From a virus: 46,478 nucleotides of DNA. A program made the translations under genes and the position numbers. The stretch is taken from positions 1-46,478 of the IMG/VR virus record IMGVR_UViG_3300045242_000171; one strand, given 5' to 3'. The notes below the pieces were generated by a model that saw only the letters and a list, made by a program, of their open reading frames with translations, searched no databases and was not told where the DNA came from. Numbering within the stretch: position 1 is the first letter of the stretch; every line of letters starts with the position of its first letter. This document shows positions 9,963-46,110 of this stretch, piece by piece.

Positions 9963-10071
9963 ATTACCGCCCGACTTCGAGCTGGCGCTCGCCCTGCTCG
10001 TGGAGCACCACGTTCAGCGCACGCTCGAGAGGCTGCTCAAGGGAGGCGGGATCTTCAGCGAGTCCAAGTAG
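9865..10071 (+). CDS. Small basic protein
   Basis: 68 residues with a strong ribosome site (AAGGAGAGAGCG before ATG 9865), supporting it despite the 98-base overlap with the previous frame. Begins MRKWTAERRAKFKRTMKAKA, a basic helix, then a hydrophobic helix FELALALLVEHHVQRTLERL. It is the last gene of the small-gene chain and its end overlaps the opposing integrase by 58 bases. Confidence 0.65.
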   Translation: MRKWTAERRAKFKRTMKAKAQAREPGPKSNGAKLPPDFELALALLVEHHVQRTLERLLKGGGIFSESK

Positions 10072-11231
10072 TCTGCCCACTGCTGCATCATCGCCCGCCG
10101 AGCCTCCAGCTTCTGCGCGCGATTGTATGCGCCCCTGACGGCGTTGCGTTCCTTATGAGCGAGCTGGAGTTCGATCAGGTCTCCGTCTACGAGGAGCTCG
10201 TTAAGGAGCGTGCTGGCGATCGTACGGAAGCCGTGGGGCGTCTGCTGCTCGCTGGTGTACCCGAGGCGCTTAAGGGCGCCGTTCAGGGTGTTCTCGGAAA
10301 TCGGCCGGTCATCCGAGACGAGGCTGGGGAAGAGAAGGCGCGTGTGACCCGTGTGAGCCTGGAGCTCACGGAGGAGCGCTACCGCCTGCACGGAGAGCGG
10401 GACTATGTGTTCTTCGGACACATTCACGCGGCTCCCCTTCATGCGAGCGCCGGGGATTCTCCACTCTGCAGCGTCAAAGTTGATCTCACTCCACTCACCG
10501 CCGCGAAGCTCGCGGCTGCGCAGGAACACCAGGGGCAGGAGCCGCAGCGCGTATGCGGCCGATGGCTTGCCCGTGTAGCCGTCGATGGCCCGGAGAAGCG
10601 CCCCCACGTCGGCCTTGTTGGTCATGGCGGCCCGGTGTTCAGCTGGCGTTGCGACGATGGCTCCGCGGAGATCCTGTGCTGGATCACGCGAGCACCGGCC
10701 CGTCGCGATGCCGAATCGAAAGATGCGGCTGGCTAATGTCCTCACTCTGAACACGGTGTCGGTGAGGTTGAGCTCCTCGATCTTGCGCAGCGCGCGCAGG
10801 AGCTCCGGCGCGTCGATGTGATCGATGGGGCGCGTGCCCAGGTACGGGCGCAGGTACTTCCCGTACAGCTGCGTGTGCTTCGCGAGCGTGGAAGAATCCA
10901 GCTTCTTAGCCTGCTGCTCGAGGTGCTCAAGAGCCACGGCGCCGAAGGTGTGGTCGAGCTTCGCGCGCTCAGCCTGGCGCTGCTCGCTGGGATTGTCGCC
11001 GCCCGCCACTGACTTGCGGGCCGCGTCGCGCTTCGCTCGAGCGTTCTTCAGCCCCACGTCCGGGTACGCGCCCAGGCTGATGAGCTTCTCCACTCCGCCG
11101 TAGCGATACTTGAAGCGCCAGAGCTTCGAGCCGGAGGGCTGTACGATCAGGTACAGCCCGTTGGTGTCGTACAGCTTGCGGGGCTTGTCGCCGGGCAGCG
11201 CGGCCTTGATGGCTGGGTCGGTGAGGCTCAT
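10014..11231 (-). CDS. int: Tyrosine integrase, DUF4102 (P4-like) family
   Basis: 405 residues from ATG 11231 (ATGA overlap with the upstream gene). N-terminal DUF4102 arm-binding domain: YDTNGLYLIVQPSGSKLWRF, then KLISLGAYPDVGLKNARAKR. SAM-like core-binding domain at about residues 100-190. Catalytic domain: LVFLRSRELRGGEWSEINF carries the first Arg (R-x-x-E-L), HGFRTIASTLLNE the H-x-x-R box, and LAHKERNAVRGAYNRA the second His and the likely Tyr nucleophile. Integrates the phage into the host chromosome, usually at the 3' end of a tRNA or tmRNA gene. Its transcription faces the small-gene chain; the probable attP lies about 460 bp upstream. Confidence 0.95.
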   Translation of the reverse strand: MSLTDPAIKAALPGDKPRKLYDTNGLYLIVQPSGSKLWRFKYRYGGVEKLISLGAYPDVGLKNARAKRDAARKSVAGGDNPSEQRQAERAKLDHTFGAVALEHLEQQAKKLDSSTLAKHTQLYGKYLRPYLGTRPIDHIDAPELLRALRKIEELNLTDTVFRVRTLASRIFRFGIATGRCSRDPAQDLRGAIVATPAEHRAAMTNKADVGALLRAIDGYTGKPSAAYALRLLPLVFLRSRELRGGEWSEINFDAAEWRIPGARMKGSRVNVSEEHIVPLSVQAVALLRELQAHTGHTRLLFPSLVSDDRPISENTLNGALKRLGYTSEQQTPHGFRTIASTLLNELLVDGDLIELQLAHKERNAVRGAYNRAQKLEARRAMMQQWADYLDSLKIPPPLSSLSSVR

Positions 11232-11437
11232 GACTTCACCGCTACGGGCTCGAGCTTGTAGTGATCGATGCGTCCCTGCAGCGCGGCCTCTGGGGTCGGC
11301 CACCCGCGCCGCGACGGGCTGCGCTGGAAGGCTGGCACGAAGCGCCAGCCGTCGCGGTGGAGTCGCACGCTGCCCAGCAGGAGCCCCGCGGGCCACTTGC
11401 CAGTGCCATCGGTGATGACTCGGTAGATGTTGTTCAT
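11228..11437 (-). CDS. Hypothetical protein, upstream of int
   Basis: 69 residues; ATG 11437 overlaps the previous stop and the TGA overlaps the int ATG. Begins MNNIYRVITDGTGKWPAGL and has a basic, aromatic middle (RDGWRFVPAFQRSPSRRGW). Its place immediately before int would suit a recombination directionality factor, but I see no clear winged-helix signature, so this is only positional. Confidence 0.55.
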   Translation of the reverse strand: MNNIYRVITDGTGKWPAGLLLGSVRLHRDGWRFVPAFQRSPSRRGWPTPEAALQGRIDHYKLEPVAVKS

Positions 11438-11685
11438 GACTGCACCGCCTTAGCGATGGCAGCGCGGACAACGCGGCGTAGCGGCTCACACATGGCGCGG
11501 CTGTCGCAGTACTCATCGCACATGCGCAGCGCGGCCAAGAGATCTGGCGCGGCCGCAAGTAACGGCGCGTATTTGGGATAATCCGTGGTCGCAATCGAGC
11601 CACCGTGCTCGCCTACAACGTGCGTTACGCCATTGACGGTGGCGACGCGCCACGGGCCGGGTGTGTGTTTGCTTACGGTCTTCAT
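11434..11685 (-). CDS. Hypothetical 'HTPGPW' phage protein
   Basis: 83 residues from ATG 11685, which follows GGAGACCGAG; the frame is open upstream but this start has the ribosome site. Starts MKTVSKHTPGPWRVATVNG and has the helical APLLAAAPDLLAALRMCDEY tail. This layout is common among small proteins of unknown function in phages and prophages. First gene of the integrase operon. Confidence 0.75.
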   Translation of the reverse strand: MKTVSKHTPGPWRVATVNGVTHVVGEHGGSIATTDYPKYAPLLAAAPDLLAALRMCDEYCDSRAMCEPLRRVVRAAIAKAVQS

Positions 11686-12040: not shown

Positions 12041-12160
12041 ATGAGCAACTGGCAGCAGCACCTCTCTTGGTCACAGGCGACCGTGGCGTTTTTTTGCCTG
12101 TGGCTAGTAGCAGGTTTCTTGGTCGCGCGCTTCATCACGTGGGCGGTGGCCCGTGGCTAA
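12041..12160 (+). CDS. Small single-span membrane protein
   Basis: 39 residues; ATG 12041 behind AGGAGG, and the stop overlaps the methyltransferase GTG by 8 bases. Residues ~13-33 are a hydrophobic helix (ATVAFFCLWLVAGFLVA), flanked by polar ends. Being first in a tightly controlled operon, it might be a lysogenic-conversion or superinfection protein; that is speculation. Confidence 0.65.
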   Translation: MSNWQQHLSWSQATVAFFCLWLVAGFLVARFITWAVARG

Positions 12161-13478
12161 GAGCGGCGCGTACTACAACGAGTTAGACCCGAAGGCGGCC
12201 GCGTGGCTGCGCGAGCTAATCAAGCGTGGCGCTATCGCGCCGGGAGATGTTGATGAACGATCCATCAAAGAAGTACGGGCAGATGATCTTGCCGGGTATC
12301 GGCAGTGTCATTTCTTCGCCGGGATTGGAGTCTGGTCTCACGCTCTTCGAGGTGCCGGCTGGCCCGACAACCGACAGGTATGGACCGGAAGTTGTCCGTG
12401 CCAGCCTTTCAGCGCTGCAGGACGGAGAGGTGGAGTCGAGGACGAGCGCCACCTCTGGCCTGCCTTCTTCGATCTCATCGAGGTCGCGCACCCTGACGTT
12501 GTGTTTGGCGAGCAGGTTGCGAGCAAAGACGGACTTGGCTGGCTCGACCTTGTATGCGCTGACTTGGAAGGAGCGGGCTACGCCGTCGGGGCGGCAGATA
12601 CCTGCGCTGCGGGCTTCGGCGCGCCGCATATCCGCCAGCGACTCTACTGGGTGGCCCACGCCAACGACGCCGAGCGGCGGCCAGACGCCACCGGAGGGCA
12701 CGACGTCTACAGGCAGGACACCAGACGGTCGCAAGGTGCAAGTGACGCTCAAGGACGTAGCAGTGTTAACGGGGTGGCTGACTCCGACAGCTTGCTCACC
12801 CAACAGCCTGCGCGGGGCTGGACAGGACCCGGAGATTCGCAAGGCGAACGGGCACACGGTGAATCTGCAGGATCAAGTCAGGCTGGCGGCGTGGCCGAGT
12901 CCGGTGGTGAACGACTCGAAGGGATCGGACTACTCCTACAGCCAAGGGGATCACAGCAAGATCGCCCTGAAGCTTGGAGGGGCTGCGAAGCTGACCGGCT
13001 GGGCCACTCCGGCAGCGAACGAGGCGGGCGGCACGCCGGAGCGCTTCTTGGAGAGGAAGGCTGCGCTGGAGGGAGCGTGCGGGGTGAGCCTCACGAGTCT
13101 GGCGCTGCAGGCGCAGATAGCGGCGTGGCCCACTCCTGCCACGACGGACTACAAGGGAGGCTATCAGGGCGGCCGGATCCGCAACGGGAAGCTGTCGGTG
13201 GATCGGCTGGATGTGGCGGCGCAGTTGGCGCAGCCAGCCCGACTAACGGCGAGTGGCGAGCTCCTGACTGGCTCTTCTGCAGGGATGGAAAGTGGAGGCC
13301 AGTTGAATCCGGCACATTCCCGCTGGCTAATGGGGCTGCCGCCCGTGTGGGACGACTGCGCGGTTACGGCAATGCCCTCGTCGGCCCGCAAGCCCAAGCC
13401 TTCATTGAAGCCTACCTAGAGGCCAGGGGCTCTAAAACACCTTCTACCCTAGTATCCTCCTCCTCAGAAGGAGAATAA
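12153..13478 (+). CDS. dcm: C5-cytosine DNA methyltransferase
   Basis: 441 residues from GTG. Motif I is FFAGIG (residues ~55). Motif IV is GSCPCQPFS with the catalytic Cys. Motif VI reads VFGEQV in place of the usual E-N-V. Motif VIII is IRQRLYWVA, and the C-terminal motif IX/X region is GRLRGYGNALVGPQAQAFI. Between VIII and IX lie ~170 low-complexity residues rich in Gly, Ser, Glu and Arg, with repeats of VAHA, VADS, VAES and VAHS. This is the target-recognition position. It methylates cytosine in an unknown site, probably to evade restriction. Positions 12253-13419 also encode a second protein in the +1 frame. Confidence 0.9.
   Translation: MAKSGAYYNELDPKAAAWLRELIKRGAIAPGDVDERSIKEVRADDLAGYRQCHFFAGIGVWSHALRGAGWPDNRQVWTGSCPCQPFSAAGRRGGVEDERHLWPAFFDLIEVAHPDVVFGEQVASKDGLGWLDLVCADLEGAGYAVGAADTCAAGFGAPHIRQRLYWVAHANDAERRPDATGGHDVYRQDTRRSQGASDAQGRSSVNGVADSDSLLTQQPARGWTGPGDSQGERAHGESAGSSQAGGVAESGGERLEGIGLLLQPRGSQQDRPEAWRGCEADRLGHSGSERGGRHAGALLGEEGCAGGSVRGEPHESGAAGADSGVAHSCHDGLQGRLSGRPDPQREAVGGSAGCGGAVGAASPTNGEWRAPDWLFCRDGKWRPVESGTFPLANGAAARVGRLRGYGNALVGPQAQAFIEAYLEARGSKTPSTLVSSSSEGE
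12253..13419 (+). CDS. Overprinted protein inside the methyltransferase gene
   Basis: 388 residues, in the frame +1 to the methyltransferase and wholly inside it. ATG 12253 follows GGGAG at 6 bases. The sequence has family-like features: an N-terminal SSPGLESG stretch, GSTLYALTWKERATPSGR, five GW(P/L/A)TP- or AWPSP-type repeats each ~50-70 residues apart, GRTPDGRKVQVTLKDVA, and a C terminus NPAHSRWLMGLPPVWDDCA. I recall proteins with this pattern in phage and prophage annotations next to C5 methyltransferases, and a similar NP--WLMG-P-W ending in some methyltransferase C termini. Its repeats are the +1-frame image of the VA(H/D/E)S repeats of the other frame. A role as target-recognition partner is possible but unproven. 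Confidence 0.6.
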   Translation: MNDPSKKYGQMILPGIGSVISSPGLESGLTLFEVPAGPTTDRYGPEVVRASLSALQDGEVESRTSATSGLPSSISSRSRTLTLCLASRLRAKTDLAGSTLYALTWKERATPSGRQIPALRASARRISASDSTGWPTPTTPSGGQTPPEGTTSTGRTPDGRKVQVTLKDVAVLTGWLTPTACSPNSLRGAGQDPEIRKANGHTVNLQDQVRLAAWPSPVVNDSKGSDYSYSQGDHSKIALKLGGAAKLTGWATPAANEAGGTPERFLERKAALEGACGVSLTSLALQAQIAAWPTPATTDYKGGYQGGRIRNGKLSVDRLDVAAQLAQPARLTASGELLTGSSAGMESGGQLNPAHSRWLMGLPPVWDDCAVTAMPSSARKPKPSLKPT

Positions 13479-34951: not shown

Positions 34952-37105
34952 CTAGGCCGAAACAGCAGTCGGGTCAGGTTGCATCTGCTCGATCTGCACC
35001 GCGGTCTGGTTCTTCTCGCGGGCGATGAGCGCGTCGATCTGCTTCGCGTCGAAGTTGGCGCCGTACTCGGCGTTGATCTGGGCAGCCTGGAGGCGCGAGT
35101 TAATCTGGAGCTCCTCGTGGCGGAACTCGTCGTCGAGGATGATCTTCAGCTTGTCCTTGTCGAGCTTGGCGCCCTCGATCTTCACCTGCGCCTCCGCGAT
35201 CACCTGCTCAGGCGAGGGCTTCGGCGGCTGGATCGTGATGCCCTGCTGCTTGCTGACCGTGGGGTCGCGCCAGTAGCGGTGAGAGTCGCGGACTCCGGCC
35301 TCGTTGAGCAGCGACACGAGCCCGTTGTAGTACTCCTGCAGACCACAGAGCGGGTTTTCCACGCCGAGCGTCATCAGGATGTCTTTTTGCGCCGCGGACG
35401 TGGCGCCGAGGGCCGCGATCTTCACGTCGCTATTGCCCACGCCGAGGCCCGTGTCGACCACGGCGTGCATGTCGGGGTCCCACTGCAGCGGGTTCACGTT
35501 GAACGTGCGCCCGTTGAGGTCGAACTGCATCCGGTTGTTCTGGTGGTCGACCAACAGCCTGAGCACGCCGCGGAACATTCTTGCTACGCCGGCCGCAAAC
35601 ATGCGGGCAGTGAGGTCGACCTGGGCCTGGGCGGCCGTGACAGTCGCCTGCGCCGCCACCGGCGTGGTGGACTGCAGGGCCGCGCCGTCGAGCGCCATGG
35701 CGCTGTTGCCCACGCCCGTACGTTGTTCCCTCACCTGGTCGAGTTGGCTGAGAATCGGGAGCGCTTCGCCCCCCGTGAAGGGCACTACGAGCGGCTGCAC
35801 CATCCCTGGTGCGCGCTGCCGGATGGCGGCGCCAATTTCCGTATTGAGCACGTCGTCCAGGTTCGCCTGGCCCTCGACGTAGGCCATGCGCGGGAAGATT
35901 GACTGCTTGAGCGAGTCAAGCATGTCGCGCCACACGTGCGAGTTGATGTTCTGCACGTCCATGATGAAGTCGGCTTGCGAGTTGCCGACCATCACGTGGG
36001 GCTCGGGGTCCGGGCACAGCTGCGCCAGCGGCACCTCGTTGAAGATTTTGTTGGAGACGATCTTGCCGTTGATGCCGAGCTTGCAAATCTTGCGCAGCTC
36101 GCTGATCCCGTCGCCGTCCTGGTCGATCTGGTAGTAGCACTCGTAGTAGGGGACCATCACCTGCGACCAGGCGCTGTTGGAGGCCTGGCTCTGCACGCCG
36201 GAGGGGATCGTCTGGCGGGCTAGATATTCGACGTTGGAGAGGGTATCCACGTCGTCTGCCGTGACATCGTCGAGGTCCGCGGGGCTCACCCCCATCGCGA
36301 CCAGCTCGCCGCGGCTCTTGCGCGTGCGGTGGGCAATCAAACGGCACCCGTCCACGCCCATGGCATCCCTGCCGAAGAGAATCTCGTCCGGCGGCACGCA
36401 CGCCACTCTGACCCGGTTCTTCGGCTTGCGGCTCTTGACGCAAATCGAGTACTCAAACACAGGCACCGACATCATCTGCGGCTGCGGGGGCGGCTGGGGC
36501 GGCGCCCCAGGCATCTGCGGCGGCATTTGCGGCGGCGGAGCGTTGGGGTCGGGCACCTGCTGCGTCCCAACCTGGTTTTTGCTCTCGATGCTGAGCTCTT
36601 CGCCCTTCTCGAGCGTGGCGTGGGTGGCCTGGAGCTGCTCTTCGGTCACGCCGGAGTAGTATTTGGCGGTGATCGTTACCGATTCATCCCACCACCACTT
36701 CAGCCAGCCCGATTTCGAGCGCAGCGCGTCCTTGAACGCTCCCCAGAGGACCATGTAGCCCTCGTTCTGCACGCTGAACACGTAATTGACGGTCGCGGTG
36801 GCGTCGTCGGCGAACTCCCCGCCCTTCGTGGAGCCGGGGCTGAAGGTGACAACCTGCCGGCTGCCGAAGAATTTCTTCATCAGCGACGGCAAAGTGGCGC
36901 GGATGGTGTCGCGCACCACCGGCATCACGACCTGGGAGCGTCCCTGCTCCTCGTCGCCGAATTGCCGAGCGTGGTAGTAGTGAATCGCCAGAGCGCGCAG
37001 CGGGCCGAGCTCCGTGTCGATGTATTTGGAGGCGTCCTCGAGGTCTGAACTCAGGGCTGTGTCGACAGCGTCATCGTCCATCGGCCCAAGTTCTTGCTGA
37101 TCCAT
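34952..37105 (-). CDS. Portal protein, P22-type
   Basis: 717 residues, close to P22 gp1 (725). ATG 37105. The start has an acidic N terminus, then IDTELGPLRALAIHYYHARQ, ATLPSLMKKFFGSRQVVTFSP and LWGAFKDALRSKSGWLKWWW. A Pro/Gln-rich linker at ~195-215 is unusual. The later MLDSLKQSIFPRMAYVEGQA, PLVVPFTGGEALPI and a helical C terminus fit the portal crown/barrel. It forms the dodecameric DNA entry ring and the platform for terminase and connector. Confidence 0.9.
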   Translation of the reverse strand: MDQQELGPMDDDAVDTALSSDLEDASKYIDTELGPLRALAIHYYHARQFGDEEQGRSQVVMPVVRDTIRATLPSLMKKFFGSRQVVTFSPGSTKGGEFADDATATVNYVFSVQNEGYMVLWGAFKDALRSKSGWLKWWWDESVTITAKYYSGVTEEQLQATHATLEKGEELSIESKNQVGTQQVPDPNAPPPQMPPQMPGAPPQPPPQPQMMSVPVFEYSICVKSRKPKNRVRVACVPPDEILFGRDAMGVDGCRLIAHRTRKSRGELVAMGVSPADLDDVTADDVDTLSNVEYLARQTIPSGVQSQASNSAWSQVMVPYYECYYQIDQDGDGISELRKICKLGINGKIVSNKIFNEVPLAQLCPDPEPHVMVGNSQADFIMDVQNINSHVWRDMLDSLKQSIFPRMAYVEGQANLDDVLNTEIGAAIRQRAPGMVQPLVVPFTGGEALPILSQLDQVREQRTGVGNSAMALDGAALQSTTPVAAQATVTAAQAQVDLTARMFAAGVARMFRGVLRLLVDHQNNRMQFDLNGRTFNVNPLQWDPDMHAVVDTGLGVGNSDVKIAALGATSAAQKDILMTLGVENPLCGLQEYYNGLVSLLNEAGVRDSHRYWRDPTVSKQQGITIQPPKPSPEQVIAEAQVKIEGAKLDKDKLKIILDDEFRHEELQINSRLQAAQINAEYGANFDAKQIDALIAREKNQTAVQIEQMQPDPTAVSA

Positions 37106-37259: not shown

Positions 37260-37394
37260 CTATGATACTTGGCGGCAGAGATGGCAGGCTGTCGCGTTGT
37301 GCCACCAGGCAGCCCAGATGCCTATCAGCCTGCCGAGCTCAATCTGGAACTCGATGGTGCGGACGATGTCGGGGAGGTCGTCCATGCTCTTCAT
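37260..37394 (-). CDS. Small protein after terminase, 44 aa
   Basis: ATG 37394 overlaps the terminase stop (ATGA); TAG at 37260. Sequence begins MKSMDDLPDIVRTIEFQIEL, with an amphipathic Trp/Ile helix and Cys/His near the end (ACHLC). The ATGA link favours real translation. No function is known. Confidence 0.45.
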   Translation of the reverse strand: MKSMDDLPDIVRTIEFQIELGRLIGIWAAWWHNATACHLCRQVS

Positions 37395-38812
37395 ACGACC
37401 CCCTTGATGCCGCGCTTCAGCGGCTTCGACCAGTCGGACGTGTAGCCGGGTGAGCCAGCGCCGGATGCGGCGTCAGAGGCCAGCGTGAGGAGGAAGCTGT
37501 CCGCGTAGTCGGGGGAGTTAAGGCCGCGCTTCTTGAGGTCAGACTTGCTTTCGACCTTTAGCTTTCCGTTTGACAAGAAGCTGTAGCGGGGCACGGCCAG
37601 CTCCAGCAGCCCGTCGTCCTTCGGCAGCTTGCAGTCGCGAGCCTCCAGCCACTTCTTCCCCTTGGCCCACAGCTCATCGCGCAGGAGGGCGTACGAGCCG
37701 CTGGGGTCGAATGCGGGTGATTCTGAGACGTTGATCCCTCTGACTGGAAGCTTCAGCTCCCGGCATCTGTCAACCACCCCGGCGCCAAGGCCGATCACGT
37801 CGACGAGGATCTCTACAGGCCTCTGGCCCACCACGGTGTTGTCGTACTCGTACTTCACGGCGCCGACCAGCTGCATCAAATCGAAATTCCGCCAGTACTT
37901 GGGGGGCTCCGGCACTACCTTGCCCCACCGCTTAGTGAGCACGCTCCTGTCTGTGCCGAATCGAGCCACGTCGAGGCCCCAGTACTTCACGCTGCCCGTG
38001 TCAGTGGCGATGTCGCGGTCCATGGCCGCGGTGACAAGCTCTAGCGGGATGAGCGTGGCGTCGTCGCGGATTGGGAAGTCACCGAGGACGCGTACCCTGT
38101 AAGCGTTCGAGTCCTCGCCGTAGCGAATCGCCATGTCGCTCAGGTAGTCGCGCGCCACACGCTTGGATGTGACGCAGCTCACATGCTTGGTGAGCCAATG
38201 GTCCTTCAGCCGGTGGTGAGTATCAAAAAAGAAGCCTGTGATTCGGGTCGGGTTGGAGAACAGAACTGTGCAGCAGTTCTCGCCGCTCATGCTCCCCGAT
38301 CCGGCCTCGAACACGGAGTCAGCGATGCCGCTGGCTTCGTCGCACACCAGGATGACCCGGCCGAGCTCGCTATGAATCCCTTGGATCGCCTCAGGTGTTT
38401 CGGCTCGAGACGTGCGGGCAGACACGAAGAGCTGCTCAGGAGCAGCCACCGAGGCGATGCGGTCGGCGCCCAGCGTGAAGCTCTCGCGCAGGGCATCCGG
38501 CAGCATGGCGAACCACATCTTGGTCTCGGCGTAGAGCGCATCGAACAGCTGCGGGCCAGAGGGGGCGGTGAGGATCACCTTGGCGGCACCACCAGTGGTC
38601 AGGGCCCACACGGCGATCCAGGCTCCCAGGGCACTCTTGCCTGTTCCGTGCCCCGACCTAACTGAGACCCGGCGCGCACCAGCGGCAATCGCCCTCAACA
38701 CGTCGGCCTGCCAGTCGTCGGGCTCGACGCCCAGCACGGACTGCACCAGGCCCACGGGGTCCGTAGCGTAGCGGTCGGCGAACTCAACGAATACGTTCGG
38801 GGAATTGGTCAT
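37391..38812 (-). CDS. terL: Terminase large subunit
   Basis: 473 residues. ATPase: Walker A RSGHGTGKSALGAWIAVW (residues ~53-60), Walker B VILVCDEASG, and coupling motif region FSNPTRITGFF. Nuclease: YWGLDVARFGTDRSVL (first Asp), EILVDVIGLGAGVVD (second Asp), and DYADSFLLTL near the C terminus (third Asp). It packages DNA through the portal and cuts the concatemer. Similar in size to P22 gp2. The small subunit lies 0.8 kb upstream, separated by an HNH gene. Confidence 0.95.
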   Translation of the reverse strand: MTNSPNVFVEFADRYATDPVGLVQSVLGVEPDDWQADVLRAIAAGARRVSVRSGHGTGKSALGAWIAVWALTTGGAAKVILTAPSGPQLFDALYAETKMWFAMLPDALRESFTLGADRIASVAAPEQLFVSARTSRAETPEAIQGIHSELGRVILVCDEASGIADSVFEAGSGSMSGENCCTVLFSNPTRITGFFFDTHHRLKDHWLTKHVSCVTSKRVARDYLSDMAIRYGEDSNAYRVRVLGDFPIRDDATLIPLELVTAAMDRDIATDTGSVKYWGLDVARFGTDRSVLTKRWGKVVPEPPKYWRNFDLMQLVGAVKYEYDNTVVGQRPVEILVDVIGLGAGVVDRCRELKLPVRGINVSESPAFDPSGSYALLRDELWAKGKKWLEARDCKLPKDDGLLELAVPRYSFLSNGKLKVESKSDLKKRGLNSPDYADSFLLTLASDAASGAGSPGYTSDWSKPLKRGIKGVV

Positions 38813-43678: not shown

Positions 43679-43923
43679 GTGGCCCCCTGATCTGCTATCA
43701 CCGCCTCGGCTCGCAGGATGTCACCCTGGATGGCGCCCACGCAGTGGTGAGGATTGTTTCCCATGATCAGGTTGATGATCGGCGCGAATATCTTCCCGCG
43801 GATCTTGCCCTGCTGATAGGCAGAGCCGGCGCGGCCCGAGAGCGTCTCGCCAGGCTTGCCGCCGCAGATGGCGCTCACGAACATGTCCAAGCCTAGCGCC
43901 ACGTTGAGTAGGTAGAGCTTCAT
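43675..43923 (-). CDS. Hypothetical phage protein
   Basis: 82 residues from ATG 43923 overlapping the helicase stop. Starts MKLYLLNVALGLDMFVSAIC, then GGKPGETLSGRAGSAYQQGK and INLIMGNNPHHCVGAIQGDI. I recall similar proteins in other phages, function unknown. The hydrophobic N terminus could be membrane-touching. Confidence 0.65.
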   Translation of the reverse strand: MKLYLLNVALGLDMFVSAICGGKPGETLSGRAGSAYQQGKIRGKIFAPIINLIMGNNPHHCVGAIQGDILRAEAVIADQGAT

Positions 43924-45491
43924 GCAGGTTCTCCTATTGACTCGAGCCACTGTTGTGTGGATTCGGTGTTGGGTCGGTACTCACGCCGCTTCACGCGGTG
44001 GTAGGCGATGTCGCGGGACTTGATCCAGCGCAGCGTGGAGATAGAGGGGTCAATGCCGCCGAATCGCTGCACGTGGGAGGACCAGTTGCGGGGCGGCCAC
44101 TCGCCGAAGCGCTCCTTGTACTTCATCGCGGAGTAGCCAGGCTTGTAGGCCTTCATCTCTCCGTAGCCGGCGAGTTCCAGGTAGAAGTTGCGCCGCTGGT
44201 TCTCCGTCAGCAGCGAGGCCCTGCGTGGTCCCACCTCAGAGAGCTCTCCTTCGCCGACGGTGACCACTCGAGCACGCGGGGCGAAATAATATCCACACGA
44301 GGGGCAGGTGTTGGAGCCGGCCCACACGCACTTGCAGTCGGGGCAGGTGAGCTTCTTGATCTCGTCTTTCGGCTTGGCCGCGGCGGCTTCGGCGGTGCGC
44401 TTCTCGTCGATCGCGTACTTGCCGTGAAGGGTCCAGTAGCGGTCATCCGTGGCGAACCCGTGGCGATGCACATTGCCCGCGTGATCGAGTACCAGGCAGT
44501 CCGACTTTCCCGCAGTGGGGCGGAGTCCTCGTCCGAGCATCTGGAGATAAAGTCCGAGAGACTTCGTAGGGCGCGCAAAGACGACGCAGTCGAGCTCCGG
44601 GAGGTCGAAGCCGATACTGGCGAGGGTGCAGTTGGTGAGTACTTGCGTGCGGCCATTCGAGAACCTCTCAAAGATTGCTTCACGAGCGTGCTGGGGCGTG
44701 TTGGCATCGACATGCTCAGCGGCTACGCCCTCGGACAGGAACTGCTGCGCTAGCGCCACGGAGTGCGGGATCTTGGTCGCGAACACCACCGTCCTGCGGC
44801 CAGCCGCGTACTTGAGCCAGTGCTCCACGATGTCACCGGTGAGCTGCGGGCGATTCATCACGCCCTCGAGCTCACCCAGGTTGTAGTCACCGCCGAGCGT
44901 GTGGACTGCCTTGAGGTCAGGCTCGCTCACGCTGAAGTAGCGGGCGGGGACCAGGAAGCCCGCGTCAGTCAGTTCTCTGACGGACGCCACCTCGATGAGC
45001 TCGTCGTACACGCGCCCCAGCGCCTTACCATCAGAGCGGCAGGGTGTGGCGGTGAGGCCAATGATCTGTGCGTCCGGCCAAAGGCCCAACAACGCAGCCC
45101 GCGTGTCAGTGAGACCCACGTGGGCCTCGTCCACGATGATCCTATCAAACGGCGCAAGCTCAATCCGCTTGCGTCGGAGCACGCGGGAAATAAGCGTGTC
45201 CACGCTCCCCACCTGCACGTTCGAGTACAGGTTGGTGCGGTTGTCACCAGCAAGAATCACTCCATACTTCACGCCAACGTCGTCGAGCTTCCTGCAGGTC
45301 TGGTGGATCAGCTCCCGGCGCGGAGCCAAGAACAACGTGCGGCTGTCGCCGCCCCGGCGGATGATCTCGGCGGCAATGACAGTCTTCCCAGAACCAGTTG
45401 GGGCGACCAGCAGAGGCGCCCTCACGTTCATGAACCGCATCTGGTCGACGCGGTCCACCGCGGCCTCCTGGTAGGGGCGTAGCTGGATCAC
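43920..45491 (-). CDS. SF2 helicase
   Basis: 523 residues from GTG 45491 (GTGA overlap). Helicase motifs in order: Q-like RPYQEAAVDR, motif I APTGSGKTVIAAEI, motif II VDEAHVGL, motif III LTATPCRSDG, later motif V LTNCTLASIGFDLPEL and VI QMLGRGLRPT. A zinc ribbon, CPDCKCVWAGSNTCPSCGYY, lies at ~390-410, followed by a helical C terminus. The type I-restriction R/UvrB-like group of phage helicases fits. Unwinds or remodels DNA in replication/recombination. Confidence 0.9.
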   Translation of the reverse strand: MIQLRPYQEAAVDRVDQMRFMNVRAPLLVAPTGSGKTVIAAEIIRRGGDSRTLFLAPRRELIHQTCRKLDDVGVKYGVILAGDNRTNLYSNVQVGSVDTLISRVLRRKRIELAPFDRIIVDEAHVGLTDTRAALLGLWPDAQIIGLTATPCRSDGKALGRVYDELIEVASVRELTDAGFLVPARYFSVSEPDLKAVHTLGGDYNLGELEGVMNRPQLTGDIVEHWLKYAAGRRTVVFATKIPHSVALAQQFLSEGVAAEHVDANTPQHAREAIFERFSNGRTQVLTNCTLASIGFDLPELDCVVFARPTKSLGLYLQMLGRGLRPTAGKSDCLVLDHAGNVHRHGFATDDRYWTLHGKYAIDEKRTAEAAAAKPKDEIKKLTCPDCKCVWAGSNTCPSCGYYFAPRARVVTVGEGELSEVGPRRASLLTENQRRNFYLELAGYGEMKAYKPGYSAMKYKERFGEWPPRNWSSHVQRFGGIDPSISTLRWIKSRDIAYHRVKRREYRPNTESTQQWLESIGEPA

Positions 45492-45619
45492 CGGCCACTG
45501 ACGAGCACGATGCCGGCGACGAGCACGGCGACCCATCCCAGGGCGGCGAACACGCCGACCACCACGCCTGCCACCACGCGCGTGATGGACAGCGCCACCT
45601 CTCGAGCGCGGCGGGTCAC
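45488..45619 (-). CDS. 43-residue membrane protein
   Basis: GTG 45619 overlaps the previous stop (GTGA); TGA at 45488 overlaps the helicase GTG. Sequence: a basic start, then VVAGVVVGVFAALGWVAVLV as one or two membrane spans. The longer open frame reading from 45853 is a shadow of the upstream gene. Confidence 0.6.
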   Translation of the reverse strand: MTRRAREVALSITRVVAGVVVGVFAALGWVAVLVAGIVLVSGR

Positions 45620-46110
45620 TTCGGGCTCCCGACGCAGCCGGCGAAGCGCTTGTGGGCGGCCTCCTCTGCCTCGGCCAGCACCACATCCACGCTGCGCCGG
45701 AAGGCGCCGTCGGTGGCGAGCTCTTTGCCGGCGACGTGACCGTTGGCGTCCGGCGCTGGCAAATAGTAGAAGTCCCATGGAGTCTTCGGCTTGGGAGGAT
45801 TCTTGCCCTGGTCCGCCTCGATCGTCAGCTGCAGCAGCGCGCACAATCTCCACACTGCCTTCGCCAGGTGGTAGGTGCCATCCTCGTCTTTTACGTTGCC
45901 CTGCTGGTGGTCAATCATGTGGCGCATGACCTTGTTGGCGTGGTCGGTCGAGACTCCCCGCTCCCACCGCAGCGCTCCGCCCAGGGCGTGCTGCTTGTTG
46001 CCGAGCAATGACACTGCAGCCACGGCCGCGGGCACGTCGGGGAAGTAGGCGATGAATCCATCCCACACAGGCAGCGCGTTGCGCGCGTCGCGATCAGTTG
46101 GCAGCGTCAT
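45616..46110 (-). CDS. dATP/dGTP diphosphohydrolase-like protein (DUF5664 type)
   Basis: 164 residues from ATG 46110; a TTG at 46122 is an alternative. The pattern RNALPVWDGFIAYFPDVPAA, VSLLGNKQHALGGALRWERG, VSTDHANKVMRHMIDHQQ, DGTYHLAKAVWRLCALLQL matches the phage family I know as DUF5664, named dATP/dGTP diphosphohydrolase in Pfam. Conserved His/Asp (GNKQH, STDHA) would bind metal. Such enzymes remove specific dNTPs; here no purZ is seen, so base replacement is not indicated. Confidence 0.7.
   Translation of the reverse strand: MTLPTDRDARNALPVWDGFIAYFPDVPAAVAAVSLLGNKQHALGGALRWERGVSTDHANKVMRHMIDHQQGNVKDEDGTYHLAKAVWRLCALLQLTIEADQGKNPPKPKTPWDFYYLPAPDANGHVAGKELATDGAFRRSVDVVLAEAEEAAHKRFAGCVGSPK

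Follow-up and report, generated by a model that had tools for sequence, protein, structure and literature searches.

A phage C5-cytosine methyltransferase gene whose two overlapping reading frames probably encode a catalytic and a specificity subunit

A second reading frame within a phage methyltransferase gene

The DNA analysed here (the window, 46,478 bases) is the IMG/VR virus record IMGVR_UViG_3300045242_000171. Since it carries genes for an integrase (10014-11603), a portal protein (34952-37105), a terminase (37391-38812) and a helicase (43920-45686), it is probably a temperate phage or a piece of one. We examined its C5-cytosine methyltransferase gene (frame 0; Table 1), in which the +1 reading frame runs without stops over 12226-13419. 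A GGGAG sequence at 12242-12246 lies six bases 5′ of the ATG at 12253, the order read in the initial annotation. This annotation had also proposed that five repeats are shared by the two frames, and in the window the five W-x-[TS]-P repeats of the +1 frame and the frame-0 segments VAHA, VADS, VAES, LGHS and VAHS are indeed identical DNA. On the minus strand, an antisense ORF of 213 aa (12216-12857) overlaps the gene and is most likely an incidental product of composition.

The frame-0 protein matched the PHROG_363 profile (1.2e-80), PF00145 (4e-14, across aa 76-179) and M.HhaI (3e-07). C5-methyltransferase motifs I, IV, VI, VIII and X are present in order, motif VI reading GEQV, not ENV. The motifs I, IV, VIII and X listed in the initial annotation are thus confirmed, with one correction: motif IX, when looked for in frame 0, is absent and is located in the +1 frame instead. 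The target-recognition region and motif IX lie together in the +1 frame, not in the polypeptide that carries the core. In some relatives (L055), next to nothing separates the frame-0 core from its tail.

Table 1. Features of the methyltransferase locus in the window
Feature	Position	Strand	Basis
Frame 0, putative catalytic subunit of C5-cytosine methyltransferase, 441 aa, GTG start	12153-13478	+	PHROG_363, PF00145 and M.HhaI matches
+1 frame, putative specificity subunit, 388 aa, ATG 12253, stop 13417-13419	12253-13419	+	PHROG_31772, PHROG_1008; relatives
Candidate internal start of the +1 frame: ribosome-binding site GGGAG with ATG	12242-12255	+	sequence; SD and ATG in relatives
Frame-0 motif I (FAGIG)	12315-12344	+	sequence; conserved in alignment A1
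Frame-0 motif IV, catalytic Cys (GSCPCQPFS)	12387-12413	+	sequence; alignment A1
Predicted +1 helix and beta-hairpin module, over core motifs VI-VIII	12475-12621	+	AlphaFold; dual-frame constraint
Frame-0 motif VI region (VFGEQV)	12501-12518	+	sequence; GEQV invariant in alignment A1
Frame-0 motif VIII (GAPHIRQRLYWVAH), end overlaps first +1 WPTP	12618-12659	+	sequence; alignment A1
+1 module 1 (WPTPTTPSGGQT...KVQVTLKDVAVLTG)	12652-12774	+	recurs in other phages as second, third or fourth module, at 82-90% identity
Frame-0 middle, VADS-type repeats, unconstrained linker	12660-13259	+	codon-position test
+1 module 2	12775-12891	+	sequence; module parsing
+1 module 3 (WPSPVVNDSKGSDYSYSQGDHSK...)	12892-12999	+	83% identical copy at position 1 in L132
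+1 module 4	13000-13125	+	sequence; module parsing
+1 module 5 (WPTPATTDYKGGYQGGRIRNGKLSVDRLDVAAQLA)	13126-13230	+	same module type elsewhere at other positions
Frame-0 tail (PDWLFCRDGKWRPVE...), motif X GYGNALVGPQ within 13350-13406	13260-13406	+	sequence; conservation
Putative +1 motif IX (LNPAHSRWLMGLPPVWDD), over start of frame-0 motif X region	13303-13356	+	hhalign to actinophage enzymes

The +1 frame is kept open and constrained across the family

Synonymous-codon shuffling of the window frame 0 over the overlap left the +1 frame open in 3 of 20,000 shuffles, with a mean of 5.7 stops. A sample chosen without regard to the inner frame then came from a search with the methyltransferase core alone: 80 loci from viruses and 80 from bacterial genomes. 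Among these, 148 have an intact frame 0. Over the stretch scored, which runs from core codon 60 up to the tail, every one of the 148 has an open +1 frame and none has an open +2 frame. Inner-frame stops in homologues with an intact methyltransferase frame, which the initial annotation had proposed looking for, were hence found in 0/148, and its claim that the frame over 12253-13419 is open and not random holds. In a wider set of 169 nonredundant loci pooled from all searches, the +1 frame is open in 165, against 8.9 expected from synonymous shuffling. Thirteen loci with a disrupted frame 0 (stops in L111/L193, L241 and L099, frame shifts in the other nine) were taken to be degenerating copies, errors in contigs or duplicates of a single record; in L111/L193 and L241 frame 0 has a stop, yet motif IX is still found in an open +1 frame.

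Synonymous conservation is raised within the overlap (Z 9-112 over core columns 49-156 and tail columns 1-48). Values are highest at core columns 73-156 and tail columns 1-48 (Z 24-112), intermediate at core columns 49-72 (Z 9-16) and Z 7 at the last seven core columns, whereas outside the overlap, 5′ of the inner start region and 3′ of the inner stop, they are at or near baseline (Z -1 to 6). Similarly, change at frame-0 third positions is 0.58 before and 0.55 after the overlap, compared with 0.35 (core columns 109-160) and 0.24 (tail columns 13-44) within it. The middle region shows the +1-frame pattern, with change at +1 codon positions 1, 2 and 3 of 0.33, 0.26 and 0.53. Both frames are thus constrained at core columns ~73-160 and tail columns 1-44, and between these the +1 frame only: the suppression of synonymous change anticipated for both frames along the whole overlap was observed at its two ends and not in the middle. 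Conservation and codon-position pattern together therefore give the coding order frame 0, both, +1 alone, both, frame 0. In the middle it is mainly third positions of +1 codons that change; on this pattern, the frame-0 VADS repeats are a passive by-product, the +1 GWxTP repeats seen one base off and not themselves maintained.

High GC and codon use might by themselves leave a +1 frame open that encodes nothing, as open frames are more numerous in high-GC DNA and the 213-aa antisense ORF occurs at the same place. The rarity of open shuffles (3/20,000), the 165 open loci against 8.9, the absence of open +2 frames and the restriction of constraint to the overlap refute this explanation, to which we give practically no weight. 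Dual coding across the family is strongly supported by these comparative sequence data.

The +1 protein contains the parts that frame 0 lacks

The +1 protein matched PHROG_31772 (1.6e-43) and PHROG_1008 (1.4e-32), both of which are named DNA methyltransferase in PHROGs and are distinct from the frame-0 family PHROG_363. No family of Pfam or PADLOC matched the window +1 protein, the Pfam matches being to frame 0 only, and a Pfam scan of 76 inner proteins returned a single match, a weak one to TolA, and no HNH.

A block described initially as Trp-rich, STLYALTWKERATPSGR, contains one W only and is actually a conserved beta-hairpin. AlphaFold gave pLDDT of ~80-92 at +1 residues 77-123, which form a helix and this hairpin, and likewise in a short homologue; for the isolated proteins as a whole the mean pLDDT was 58.7 (window) and 62.2 (short homologue), with low confidence beyond the helix and hairpin. 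Foldseek against the PDB with the +1 protein model found no fold match. The helix/hairpin region coincides with the strongest dual-frame constraint in the core, and the modelled hairpin may be a dock between subunits.

The C-terminus of the +1 protein reads LNPAHSRWLMGLPPVW, followed by a short tail. In C5-methyltransferases of actinophages (Moonbeam, Neville and about thirty IMG/VR loci), PTP modules and LxPxFxEWMMGxP stand in the core frame, directly ahead of motif X. Inner proteins aligned with these single-chain enzymes by hhalign (95% probability, E 2.4e-8) and with their in-frame C-terminal half by blastp (1e-9), and PHROG_1008 matches both. L270 encodes in frame 0 a module that L206 encodes in +1, the two copies being 62% identical over 37 aa. 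When a profile of the single-chain enzymes was compared with the PDB, the segment aligned to RKLHPRECARVMGYPDSY of HhaI, which is motif IX, though its own score was weak (1.1 bits). Because of this homology to in-frame parts of actinophage single-chain enzymes, the inner protein is most likely the target-recognition region plus motif IX, shifted into the other frame. The initial annotation had seen an extra protein overprinted on a complete enzyme; instead, the +1 product appears to hold the target-recognition region and motif IX that the enzyme is missing.

Could the +1 protein be an independent accessory, for example a regulator or an anti-restriction protein, that shares the DNA and acts outside the enzyme? 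Its lack of a Pfam or PADLOC match, and of a fold match for the isolated protein, would fit such a role. The target-recognition region and motif IX missing from frame 0 are, against this, exactly what the +1 frame contains in a form homologous to single-chain enzymes, and both frames are retained together in all intact core-selected relatives; we regard an accessory as very improbable. Since the two frames are kept together and the motifs are divided between them, a split enzyme is the most likely reading.

Modules are diverse and shuffled

Between hairpin and motif IX, the window +1 frame carries five GWxTP modules of 41, 39, 36, 42 and 35 residues (12652-13230). Parseable relatives have from 0 to 7. 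A threshold of 75% identity gave 111 matching module pairs, and in 71 of these the two copies occupy different ordinal positions. The modules occur in 90 orders among 96 proteins. Phages that share modules are no closer to each other than random pairs (core identity 72.2% vs 70.5%).

Target-recognition domains of the SPbeta type are about 40 aa each. In C5-methyltransferases of the temperate Bacillus phages SPbeta, phi3T and rho11, several such domains are arrayed per polypeptide (PMC12707154). The window likewise has tandem exchangeable modules between motifs VIII and IX, of 35-42 aa; unlike in the single-chain, one-frame SPbeta-type enzymes, the array is in a separate +1 polypeptide and not in the chain of the core. 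By analogy with these tandem domains of Bacillus phage enzymes, the behaviour of the modules is that of exchangeable target-recognition domains, and each would read its own DNA site.

Modules might instead merely tune binding or fill space in a split enzyme whose specificity is set by a single one. A module number that ranges up to 7 and goes down to 0 or 1 indicates that one may suffice. The module types are nevertheless diverse, recurrent and shuffled, in the manner of the tandem recognition domains of multispecific phage enzymes (PMC12707154), and we judge the single-module alternative unlikely, though it keeps an appreciable share of the probability. That the +1 protein is an interchangeable specificity subunit acting in trans, with phages altering their methylation specificity through module swaps that keep both frames open and each module adding a methylated site, is on balance slightly favoured by the sequence comparisons. 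A role of the inner protein in specificity, raised as a possibility in the initial annotation, is strongly supported across the family at the sequence level, as the enzyme's own missing part and not as that of an additional protein.

The inner frame has its own start signals

In 111 of the 169 loci, an SD-like sequence and an ATG are found at or near core column 29, 35 or 39, the window start being the column-29 site; roughly a third of the relatives lack an SD-like sequence at these three favoured ATGs. One inner start site is supplied by the conserved frame-0 motif VDERSIxDV. Codon choice in this motif is skewed: the rare codon AGG is used for Arg31 in 28% (6% elsewhere) and GAT for Asp35 in 79% (32% elsewhere), and the ATG is present in 46 of the 49 loci with AGG at Arg31.

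EBPR siphovirus 2 (L098, 1495-3987) has an intein, with Hint and LAGLIDADG matches, that splits the catalytic PC|QPFS motif of frame 0. Its +1 ORF opens inside the intein DNA and continues without a stop for 419 codons, which cover hairpin, modules and motif IX. As this ORF begins within the intein, the locus argues for independent initiation; it also suggests that the inner protein depends little on its first ~50 residues.

Independent initiation has to be weighed against programmed frameshifting, which would fuse the frame-0 core and the +1 modules into one chain, with no separate +1 protein. The order of motifs across the two frames is that of single-chain enzymes, and contig L113 has the core and motif IX in one ORF, as frameshifting would have it. 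The +1 frame is constrained 5′ of any useful shift point (core columns 73-160), however, and has start signals of its own, and the +1 ORF of EBPR siphovirus 2 starts within an intein. Just one heptamer, GGGTTTG, recurs in many loci (76/169); it sits within the core, where the two protein sequences account for it. A scan of the 169 loci for -1 slippery heptamers found none common in the tail (at most 9/169). Frameshifting thus appears highly unlikely.

Mixed states in actinophages

In ordinary C5-methyltransferases, the core, target-recognition region, motif IX and motif X form one chain, so the split arrangement is most likely the derived state. The single-chain actinophage enzymes (Moonbeam, CheeseTouch, Neville; L260-L291) have a homologous core, modules and motif IX, and a hairpin-like segment also in +1; they differ from the window in that motifs IX and X are in the core frame and the +1 frame stops downstream. 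Some actinophages are in mixed states, with hairpin and first modules in +1 and later modules in frame 0 with IX and X. L286 has hairpin, modules, IX and X all in a single +1 ORF, and in its relative L289 this C-terminal half is read in frame 0; this related pair, of mycobacteriophage type, looks like fission by frame change caught midway. Frame changes within the module array could yield such a series of mixed states.

In the actinophage-type loci L260-L303, translating the +1 frame across motifs VI-VIII gives a hairpin-like 'YSETxPxSGMTRNGRLxxLP' and then PTP modules, with IX and X in frame 0. Synonymous conservation is raised in the hairpin region of the single-chain enzymes (Z 11-13), which spoiled their use as a clean negative control for dual coding. 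From the L260-L303 sequences, dual coding may be wider than the family of the window.

Two further arrangements were noted. The more distant ENV-type C5-methyltransferases L292-L296 (Microbacterium phage R1 type) have motif IX (NPRWIEWLMGFP) in +1 and X in frame 0. In L113 (2459-3718), a frame change puts core, modules and IX in one ORF and leaves X in another frame, which is either a natural fusion or a contig error.

A proposed two-subunit enzyme and its known counterparts

We propose that the locus very probably encodes, on overlapping frames, a two-subunit C5-cytosine methyltransferase with a catalytic and a specificity subunit, as the sequence comparisons suggest. Frame 0 would give the catalytic large domain with motifs I-VIII and X. 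The small domain, with helix and hairpin, five target-recognition modules and motif IX, would come from the +1 frame by internal initiation near 12253. If both are translated, the two products would assemble into one enzyme, as complementing fragments of C5-methyltransferases do (PMC3404938). Site choice would fall to the modules, each of which probably specifies one DNA site. The resulting methylation would shield phage DNA from restriction by the host, as phage methyltransferases usually do, and the overlap would fix co-inheritance of the two subunits. Low model confidence beyond the helix and hairpin, the lack of a fold match, the relatives without an SD-like sequence and the weak HhaI score tell against the proposal.

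Lee, Kam and Shaw reportedly described in 1995 that an alternative frame within the coding sequence of the large polypeptide of M.EcoHK31I encodes the small one, the layout also seen here. M.EcoHK31I (YGGCCR) consists of two polypeptides, of which the large has motifs I-VIII and X and the small has motif IX (PMC3404938), and on comparison of motif layouts the window and its family show the same division. The predicted TRD of M.EcoHK31I was placed in the large subunit, not the small one (PMC3404938), which speaks against the split-enzyme reading and differs from the modular array in the small polypeptide here. M.EcoHK31I also belongs to a restriction-modification system, unlike the present phage locus. 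M.AquI (CYCGRG) is another C5-methyltransferase that is naturally split in two, and its small subunit likewise contains motif IX (PMC3404938). The small subunit of M.AquI comprises IX and X, while here X remains with the core and the genes overlap almost entirely.

Two phage cases share the out-of-frame location. Escherichia phage K1ind2 has the same family and arrangement, ORF28 ('putative Mte8-like protein') lying inside ORF29 ('putative C-specific methylase'); its depositors annotated both frames, without a function or an account of the overlap. The ShiLan domain is a mobile homing endonuclease of the HNH type, inserted out of frame in a phage methylase (PMC11855218). The present ORF also lies out of frame within a phage methylase gene but, unlike ShiLan, has no HNH.

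Annotation of the family and significance

Hundreds of phages and prophages share this conserved arrangement, and annotations usually show it as one gene. In phages PMG1 (L095) and phiKX1 (L087) the inner frame alone is annotated and the catalytic frame 0 was missed; in N15 (gene 58) and epsilon15 it is frame 0 alone. The initial annotation supposed that the family might be known and the dual coding not systematically described: precedents do exist in M.EcoHK31I (PMC3404938) and in the two-frame K1ind2 record. Our search of the open-access literature found no paper on a family-wide overlap or on module arrays of this kind in phages. What appears new is the combination of split enzyme, overlapping frames and module array, together with its scale.

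A gene annotated hundreds of times as one methyltransferase would thus become two overlapping subunits, and the overlap would be one of the longer same-strand gene overlaps with good support in phages and prokaryotes, its two frames having stayed in step despite great divergence. The family would offer a system for studying how long overlaps evolve, here by enzyme fission through frame change with intermediates visible in actinophages, how recombination shuffles dual-coding modules, and which DNA site each module reads. Methylation specificity predicted from the annotated frame alone would miss the part most likely to determine it.
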